Assembly: GCF_022539665.2 (NCBI RefSeq)
Contig: NC_081336.1
Coordinates: 7,726,778-7,790,777 of the forward strand
Reading direction: 5' to 3'
Length of the DNA stretch: 64,000 nt
DNA from: Daphnia carinata
Taxonomy: Eukaryota; Arthropoda; Branchiopoda; Diplostraca; Daphniidae
Shown: positions 62,335-64,000 of the stretch, one piece after another
How the letters are laid out: every line of letters starts with the position of its first letter
How positions within the stretch are numbered: the stretch's first letter is position 1
Notes under the pieces: model-generated
Databases searched by the model: none
What the model was told of the DNA's origin: nothing
Seen by the model: only the letters and a program-made list of their open reading frames with translations
Position numbers and translations under genes: made by a program

Positions 62335-62568
62335 TTGAAGAGACCGAGAACAAAGGCATATGCTTGTCAGAGATTGGTTTCCAAGAAAATGGTGGGAAAA
62401 ACGACCATTGGACAGAAAATGTTTAAGCAACGTGATTGGAAATACTTGACGGTAGCCAGTGAGCAATACATCACTGCGCTATATAGTCTAAGCGACAGAT
62501 GTAATAAACCTTTCAGTTCTATTGTCTTTAGTGATGGAAGAAGTGGTCGTTGTTCAAGTGTTGAAGGT
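62335..62568 (+). pseudogene. Possible histone H3 relic, highly degenerate
   Basis: The open frame contains QRLV at about 62368 and, 25 residues later, ASEQYITALYSLSDRC. H3 has QRLV followed after 23 residues by ASEAYLVGLFEDTNLC, so both anchors and their spacing are roughly kept. The segment between them is not H3-like. It ends at GAAG with a good GTAAGC donor, and a TTTTAG acceptor lies just before the H4 relic. Proximity to an H4 relic raises the likelihood; on its own the match would be weak. Confidence 0.35.
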
Positions 62569-62641
62569 AAGCATGACATGGGAGTAGTTATGTTATTTTG
62601 TGCGTGTTATCTGAGTATTACTTAATTTTAGAAGACCCTGA

Positions 62642-62866
62642 AGACTCATCATCCGTCACCTAGCTAACCGTGGCTGCTTCAAGCTCATCTACGAGAAACC
62701 ACGTGGCATACTGGCAATTCCCCTCGAGAATAACTTTGGTACCACTTGCACCTTAAACGAGCATTCCACGAGGAAGGCAGTTACGATGGTGAACGTCGTA
62801 TACGGATTGAAACATCAACGGCATCCTGTTCACGCGATTAACCTCACGAATCGATCCGGGCCTTGA
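62642..62866 (+). pseudogene. Histone H4 relic
   Basis: One frame reads IIRHLANRGCFKLIYEKPRG, then ILAIPLENNF, then STRKAVTMVNVVYGLKHQ. This aligns along the H4 core (IRRLARRGGVK, LIYEETRG, LENVIRD, KRKTVTAMDVVYALKRQ) with about 22 of 48 identities after LIYE, and a four-residue deletion (RISG) before LIYE. The N-terminal tail is missing, an in-frame stop (TGA 62639-62641) lies just upstream, and the C-terminal LYGFGG is replaced before the TGA at 62864. H4 is normally almost invariant, so this copy is long dead. A hairpin of histone 3'-end type begins 17 bp after its stop. Confidence 0.75.
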
Positions 62867-62874
62867 TGTACACA

Positions 62875-63620
62875 ACGGAATCGGTCCTTTTGAGGACCAC
62901 CAAATCTTCTAATTGCCTCAATACGTGTGGTAAAGCTACATGGGTCCTTTTCAGGCCCACACGAATCGCTAATTACGCCCTCCTCTTAAACAACCGGACC
63001 TTTTCAGGTCCATAACGATCGTTAATTACGCTCAACTGTTAAAAAATCGGTCCTTCTCAGGTCCACCATAATCGCCGCTTACGCCTTCGTGTTTAATAAT
63101 CGGTCCTTTTCAGGTCCATAAGAATCACTACTTATGCTCACCAGTTAAACAATCGGTCCTTTTCAGGTCCATAAGAATCACTACTTACGTTTACCAGTTA
63201 AACAATCGGTCCTTTTCAGGTCAATCGGTCCTTTTCAGGTCCATAAGAATCACTACTTACGCTTACCAGTTAAACAATCGGTCCTTTTCAGGTCCGCAAG
63301 AATCGCTAAAAACGCAACCTTACTTAACAATCGGGCCTTTTCAGGTCCATAAGAATCACTACTTACGCTTACCAGTTAAACAATCGGTCCTTTTCAGGTC
63401 CGCAAGAATCGCTAAAAACGCAACCTTACTTAACAATCGGGCCTTTCAATGTCCATGAGAATCGCTGATGGCGCTTTAGTTTGAAACAATCGGACCTTTT
63501 TGGGACCATATGAATCGCTAATTGCGCTTTGTTTAGGAACAAATGGTTCTTTTTAGAGCCTTGAAGATCGCAAAATTACGCGATCGTGTTAAACAAACGG
63601 CCCTTTATAGGGCCACCACA
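62875..63620 (+). repeat. 53-bp tandem array of histone 3' stem-loop-like hairpins (15 copies)
   Basis: Hairpin starts are at 62883, 62943, 62996, 63049, 63102, 63155, 63208, 63227, 63280, 63333, 63386, 63439, 63492, 63545 and 63599. Spacing is 53 bp except for 60, one truncated 19-bp unit, and 54 at the end. The typical element is AATCGGTCCTTTTCAGGTCC: a 6-bp stem with a TTTC loop, like the histone mRNA end GGYYYT-N4-ARRRCC. Four copies have different fully paired stems: GGTCCT/AGGACC (62883), GGACCT/AGGTCC (62996), GGTTCT/AGAGCC allowing G-T (63545) and GGCCCT/AGGGCC (63599). The last is near-canonical, with AAAC before and ACCA after it. The middle copies form a higher-order repeat of two unit types (63227-63332 and 63333-63438). 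Confidence 0.85.
63599..63614 (+). terminator. Near-canonical histone mRNA 3'-end stem-loop
   Basis: GGCCCTTTATAGGGCC has a perfect 6-bp stem and 4-base loop, preceded by AAAC and followed by ACCACA, as in metazoan replication-dependent histone genes, where SLBP binds and U7-dependent cleavage occurs a few bases downstream. A purine-rich TTAAAGAA follows about 13 bases later, as a histone downstream element might. The only histone reading frame upstream is the H4 relic, 730 bp away across the array. Confidence 0.6.
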
Positions 63621-64000
63621 AGTTAAAGAATCTGAATCAGTTAGCAACAATAATGATTTCTTTTTCGATCAGTCTTTTGTGTTATAGGATTTAAGACATG
63701 TTCCTCTACGTTAGTTCAACTATGCGTAATTTACTGTAGGTTATATACAAATTGTGGCTAATCATAAGTTTGCAAAATACTGTGTGACAAAATTGTTGTG
63801 CCTTTGGAGACCACAAAATCAACGTTGCTGATGGAGATTCTATTTGGTGAGTTAATGTTATGACGTGACTAGTGACGTCAACATGCTCGTCTCTGTAGAA
63901 GTTCTGAGACAATAACTCTTCCATAGGCTATGTTGATTCGACAACAACTTCGAATTCTCCTGTAAATTTTCCAATCAAGTCTTATTGGTAACTATTGGAA
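63621..64000. other. Window end, no gene seen
   Basis: No supportable gene or repeat is visible in the last 380 bp. Confidence 0.5.

Follow-up and report, generated by a model that had tools for sequence, protein, structure and literature searches.

A minisatellite of histone-type stem-loops at the 3' end of a decayed histone H4 gene in Daphnia carinata

We suggest that a 53-bp minisatellite on contig NC_081336.1 of Daphnia carinata arose by expansion of the 3' end of an isolated histone H4 pseudogene, that it is mostly neutral, and that its last copy is perhaps still a working processing signal. In our judgement this is the probable reading of the locus. The array occupies positions 62883..63614 of the window, the 64,000-nucleotide stretch analysed here, and holds 15 copies (u01 to u15) of a 16-nt hairpin, all of them on the + strand, as placed by TRF and pattern positions. 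Successive hairpins are 60, 53 (five times), 19, 53 (six times) and 54 bp apart, the spacing of 19 bp marking a partial copy at 63208. Among the periods found by TRF are 53 and 106 bp. Both the fifteen same-orientation hairpins and the almost exact 53-bp period described in the first-pass annotation are thus confirmed, and the array is a minisatellite in the usual sense: head-to-tail units, within the range of about 10-100 bp, in a register that preserves their length. Outside the array, a loose hairpin pattern occurs twice on the + strand and not at all on the - strand of the 64-kb window.

The array is unique, and its hairpin is shared with histone genes. When the 108-Mb genome was queried with the whole array as DNA, the sole match was the array itself. 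The hairpin pattern GGNCCTTTTCAGGNCC has 45 exact matches in the genome: the array contains 8, and the other 37 fall between 6.99 and 8.22 Mb on the same contig (NC_081336.1), in the region of the intact histone genes. With up to one mismatch there are 74 matches, compared with 7 for a reversed-pattern control, so the hairpin pattern is not due to chance. The spacer motif has four exact matches genome-wide, all four inside the array, and with two mismatches it stays at control level (257 matches vs 284). Among viral and prokaryotic contigs, the groups covered by a weak test, no exact 20-mer match to the array was found. As far as these searches show, the unit is not scattered through the genome, and we see no sign in the genome that it belongs to a known satellite or transposon without histone linkage.

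The decayed H4 gene lies upstream of the array on the + strand, and the hairpins are on its sense strand, as had been claimed. Its coding stretch, at 62642..62833, matches amino acids 32-99 of H4 with 47% identity, a four-codon deletion and an E value of 8e-8; it stops 49 bases 5' of the first hairpin, and vaguer homology extends upstream of 62642 towards the old start. The start is scrambled, four codons are deleted and the tail is lost. Histone homology with a broken frame makes this remnant a histone pseudogene, and the nearest intact H4 gene that we found is about 104 kb away, so it stands apart from the clusters, as orphons do. Thirteen of the 16 intact H4 genes were aligned with the decayed locus, which is colinear with them from the promoter to the first hairpin. 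The order is a CCAAT-like box (a label given in this analysis) with the sequence AGCCAGTGAG at 62454..62463 (+ strand; intact consensus AGCCAATGAG), a TATA-like box, TATATAG, at 62480..62486 (+ strand), the coding region, and AATCGG..CCACCAAAT around the first hairpin. The first third of the coding region aligns poorly. That the homology includes the promoter favours a copy made as DNA over a retrocopy.

Over 62 codons the remnant keeps 57-62% coding identity to the intact genes, with 25-28 changes at codon position 1, 15 at position 2 and 30-37 at position 3. The H4-like frame is open over 62641-62866, more than 70 codons, and position 2 carries the fewest changes. A spell of coding constraint, perhaps relaxed, is possible in the history of the pseudogene. 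Pfam does not recognise the 61-amino-acid H4-like piece. A tblastn search of the window for other histone remnants, with H3 and H2B as queries, gave a best E value of 1.3. By eye, an upstream ATG and a GT..AG pair are found 5' of the H4 remnant.

The first hairpin, u01 (62883..62898, + strand), has a full Watson-Crick stem with ACCA after it and sits where the stem-loop of the H4 gene should be, about 34 nt past the stop, compared with 26-40 nt in 14 of the 16 intact genes. Since both position and flanks match, we take u01 to be the gene's own stem-loop; it has no clear downstream element. The Rfam Histone3 family (RF00032) aligns to 10 of the 15 copies, three of them with E < 0.001. Copies u01, u15 and u03 score 24.4-25.5 bits and seven others 12.8-15.9 bits (E 0.5-7.5); the curated cut-off of 34 bits is reached by none of the 15, the best score being 25.5. 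The proposed tandem amplification of a histone 3'-end element is supported by the colinear H4 homology and by the related native stem-loops. The stem-loops of the intact histone genes and their near flanks are also related to the unit, so the histone link stands.

These intact genes provide the standard of comparison. Fourteen of the 16 H4 genes found are on NC_081336.1, between 6.99 and 8.43 Mb. A genome search with Histone3 gave at least 55 matches, a lower bound because 75 of 22862 candidates were scored; 51 of the 55 are on NC_081336.1, including all 37 above the cut-off, and the array is not among the matches listed. The stem-loop pattern is found in 14 of the 16 H4 genes, 26-40 nt past the stop, and in a further gene (L039) a stem-loop can be seen by eye about 62 nt past it. 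The intact H4 at L035 (C1:4374680-4374988) has a TGA stop and an AATAAA-like signal, and the stem-loop pattern is absent from the 150 nt after its stop; from these features it is perhaps of the polyadenylated replacement type. At L048, also on NC_081336.1 (C6:7303233-7303792), the H4 tail and its stem-loop are tandemly duplicated (about 1361-1592 and 1692-1920). This duplication of 233 bp, with 82% identity, adjoins a full H4 gene and could by analogy represent a first step towards an array such as ours. Between the intact histone spacers and the array spacer, no clear match was found by eye. The genome encodes SLBP, and a search for the U7 snRNA gene gave three matches at E 3-7, none of them credible.

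Most hairpins in the array are imperfect. Six base pairs are fully formed in 5 of the 15 copies, by Watson-Crick pairs in u01, u03 and u15 and with one G-U pair each in u10 and u14. The other ten stems have at least one mismatch, which in seven is a U-U at pair 3. The hairpin form GGNCCT-TTTC-AGGNCC given in the first-pass annotation thus holds in outline, though its two N positions are usually unpaired, and its four different perfectly paired stems are reached once u14, with its G-U pair, is included. Our native set of 52 intact 3' ends from 28 histone loci was chosen by a letter pattern that leaves little room for unpaired stems, so its figure of 100% paired is largely built in. The comparison with N left free is fairer: pair 3 is formed in all 37 exact matches outside the array (34 C-G, 3 U-G) and in only 2 of the 8 inside it. 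For the commonest core 16-mer the folding energy is -3.8 kcal/mol, whereas 35 distinct intact 16-mers have a mean of -9.47 kcal/mol (range -10.7 to -7.2). In addition, the 3' flank ACCA is altered in most inner copies. In a study of human stem-loop complexes (PMC10388802), C8-G19 forms the third stem pair, and simulations of the uridylated form showed a tendency for the neighbouring G7 pair to be lost when C8-G19 was disrupted. Given that study and the mismatches seen here, most array copies should be poorer SLBP ligands than native stem-loops.

Pair-keeping double changes do occur, in u01, u03 and u14. The matching changes on both sides of the stems that the first-pass annotation pointed out are not clearly above shuffles: the array pairing is equalled by 93 of 500 shuffles, the level of pairs altered on both sides is attained in 48 of 500, and the covariation score is equalled in 59 of 500. 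The fold of the whole array beats 19 of 20 shuffles (z -2.8), an excess to be expected from repeats of hairpin ancestry.

The last copy, u15 (63599..63614, + strand), is different. It has a perfect stem, GGCCCT/AGGGCC, with an unusual loop, TTAT, and it scores 42.1 bits with a local model that we built from the 52 stem-loop ends at the histone loci of this genome. The intact ends score 29.5-61.8 bits and 5 of the 52 are below u15, though their scores are flattered because the same ends trained the model; filters were off for the array and at default for the intact ends. The description of the last copy as near-canonical is therefore borne out. For the remaining copies, u01 scores 26.8 bits, u09 and u11 22.8 bits and the other listed copies 18.5 bits or less, while u12 and u13 are unlisted even with filters off. 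Of 18 highly conserved native letters, u15 has 17, and u01 and six inner copies have 16, so this count distinguishes u15 only weakly. At 63625..63630 (+ strand), 11 nt past the stem of u15, is AAAGAA, which we read as a histone downstream element with an inferred function. It has 6 of 6 letters at +11, the commonest intact offset, seen in 12 of the 35 intact ends that keep 5 or 6 of the six element letters. In the inner copies the element has at best 5 of 6 letters and lies 2 nt past the stem. A stem-loop with an AAAGAA-like element at native spacing is thus found at u15 only. It is the downstream element, flank and stem together that set u15 apart in sequence, and u15 is likely to be the cleavage signal if the locus is transcribed. 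The idea that the array would offer many good SLBP or U7 sites is not supported: ten of the 15 stems are mismatched, the 13 copies besides u01 and u15 score no more than 22.8 bits, and a complete downstream element at the native distance follows u15 alone.

The array has a young middle and old ends, as its sequence divergence indicates, which is the usual picture for a minisatellite. Its homogenised core, u05-u11 (63102..63438, + strand), is made of two interleaved unit types with most stems U-U at pair 3; u06, u08 and u10 are 96-98% identical and u09 and u11 100%. The outer copies u02-u04 and u12-u14 differ mutually by 25-43%, and the spacers of u01 and u15 align poorly to other units. Since the outer copies have diverged nearly as far as the H4 copy has from its relatives, the expansion probably began early. 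The ends of core units resemble what follows u15 (p 0.012 for u08 and 0.027 for u06; 0.08-0.87 for the other 8 of the 10 copies), a no more than suggestive hint at the origin of the spacer.

Some of our results count against neutrality. Across 12 units the hairpin columns are more alike than the spacer columns (0.85 vs 0.67, permutation p 0.004, a value that is too small because the units are related by descent); the six outer units alone give p 0.16, and these with the two core types p 0.03. Models with invariant sites fit better. The rate of the hairpin relative to the spacer is 0.55-0.56, with a likelihood ratio of 4.3. This is tempered by the ranking of the hairpin among 53 circular windows, 12th and 15th in two unit sets, so that 11 to 14 windows stand out more. 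Weak constraint on the hairpins, past or present, is possible from these comparisons. The two promoter-like boxes and u15 are well kept next to a coding part at about 60%, and the deficit of changes at position 2 in an open frame and the folding of the whole array also count on this side. As the conservation, rate and covariation signals are weak or mixed, we set aside the view that the array is kept for function. Among the three roles proposed earlier for the array, a neutral satellite fits best.

The best alternative, which we consider unlikely, is that the locus is a live H4-derived S-phase transcription unit, with a histone-type promoter, a non-coding or degenerate body and cleavage at u15, the array being a passenger. 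Such a unit would account for the kept CCAAT-like and TATA boxes, for the score of u15 above 5 of the 52 model-training ends and for AAAGAA at the commonest native offset, in a genome that encodes SLBP. It would also agree with the better preservation of u15 (17 of 18 letters) than of codon positions 1 and 2 (82 of 124; Fisher p 0.013, a comparison chosen after the fact). However, u01 and six inner copies also keep 16 of 18 letters, the loop of u15 is unusual, age or chance could account for the kept boxes, and no credible U7 was found in the genome search. More speculatively, and with still less probability, the kept promoter could drive a non-polyadenylated S-phase ncRNA that would be cut at u15 and whose up to 14 weakened stem-loops would be sampled by SLBP or other readers. 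We regard it as highly improbable that the array is maintained as a sponge or a 3'-end block, through RNA with many binding sites for SLBP or other stem-loop readers. Fifteen sense hairpins, some double changes that keep pairs, slower evolution than in the spacers and the fold of the whole array would suit this role, but a sponge requires the inner copies to bind, and the inner stems argue against it: ten stems are mismatched, amplification has gone furthest in the weak copies, the ACCA flank is altered in most inner copies, covariation is not clearly above shuffles and local-model scores are low. A satellite unrelated to histones, with a stem-loop likeness by chance or inserted beside the H4 remnant, is hardly credible despite the unmatched spacer and its control-level loose matches, given u01 with H4 flanks at the H4 stem-loop position, the Rfam and local-model matches, the confinement of all exact spacer-motif matches to the array and, weakly, the lack of 20-mer matches in viral and prokaryotic contigs.

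We thus favour the expansion of a pseudogene 3' end, and the following course would explain it. A replication-dependent H4 gene would have been copied as DNA, with promoter and 3' end, to an isolated site, the closest intact H4 that we found on the contig being about 104 kb away, and would then have lost its coding function. Its 3' end, the stem-loop with about 37 bp, could have expanded by slippage or unequal exchange into the 53-bp minisatellite; hairpin-prone DNA may favour slippage. After a tandem step like that at L048, further rounds of duplication would give such an array. The middle copies would have been homogenised recently, leaving the outer ones old and divergent, and the inner hairpins would mostly have drifted rather than been kept as SLBP sites, with u15 apparently still built like a functional histone 3' processing signal. 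The anatomy, homology, copy number, pairing and model scores are observed; how the array expanded, that it is neutral and whether its RNA is made or processed are what we infer from them.

Histone orphons and histone pseudogenes are a known class, and this locus resembles them as an isolated, decayed histone copy away from the clusters; unlike them, it has a 3' end turned minisatellite. A satellite at the histone loci of newts likewise consists of tandem repeats near histone genes, but it is not known to be made of histone stem-loops, and here there is one small stem-loop array at a dead gene. The single histone 3' UTR stem-loop of RF00032 shares with the array the 16-nt GGNCCT-loop-AGGNCC in sense orientation, here after an H4 remnant with H4-like flanks; the array differs in having 15 copies, mostly mismatched stems and none at the Rfam cut-off. 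Parts of genes or spacers are also known to seed satellites, as the rDNA spacer does (PMC5615363), and these have similar tandem head-to-tail units with a homogenised core and divergent ends, whereas the seed here is a histone mRNA 3'-end element. In the literature searched, outside which most subscription journals lie, we found no description of a minisatellite built of histone stem-loops.

Our analysis indicates that a minisatellite can grow from the 3'-end element of a histone mRNA. If the array is transcribed, it would be a natural experiment on which of many stem-loops in one RNA SLBP and U7 select, be it the first, the last or the strongest. If it is silent, it would be a natural record of stem-loop decay without selection.
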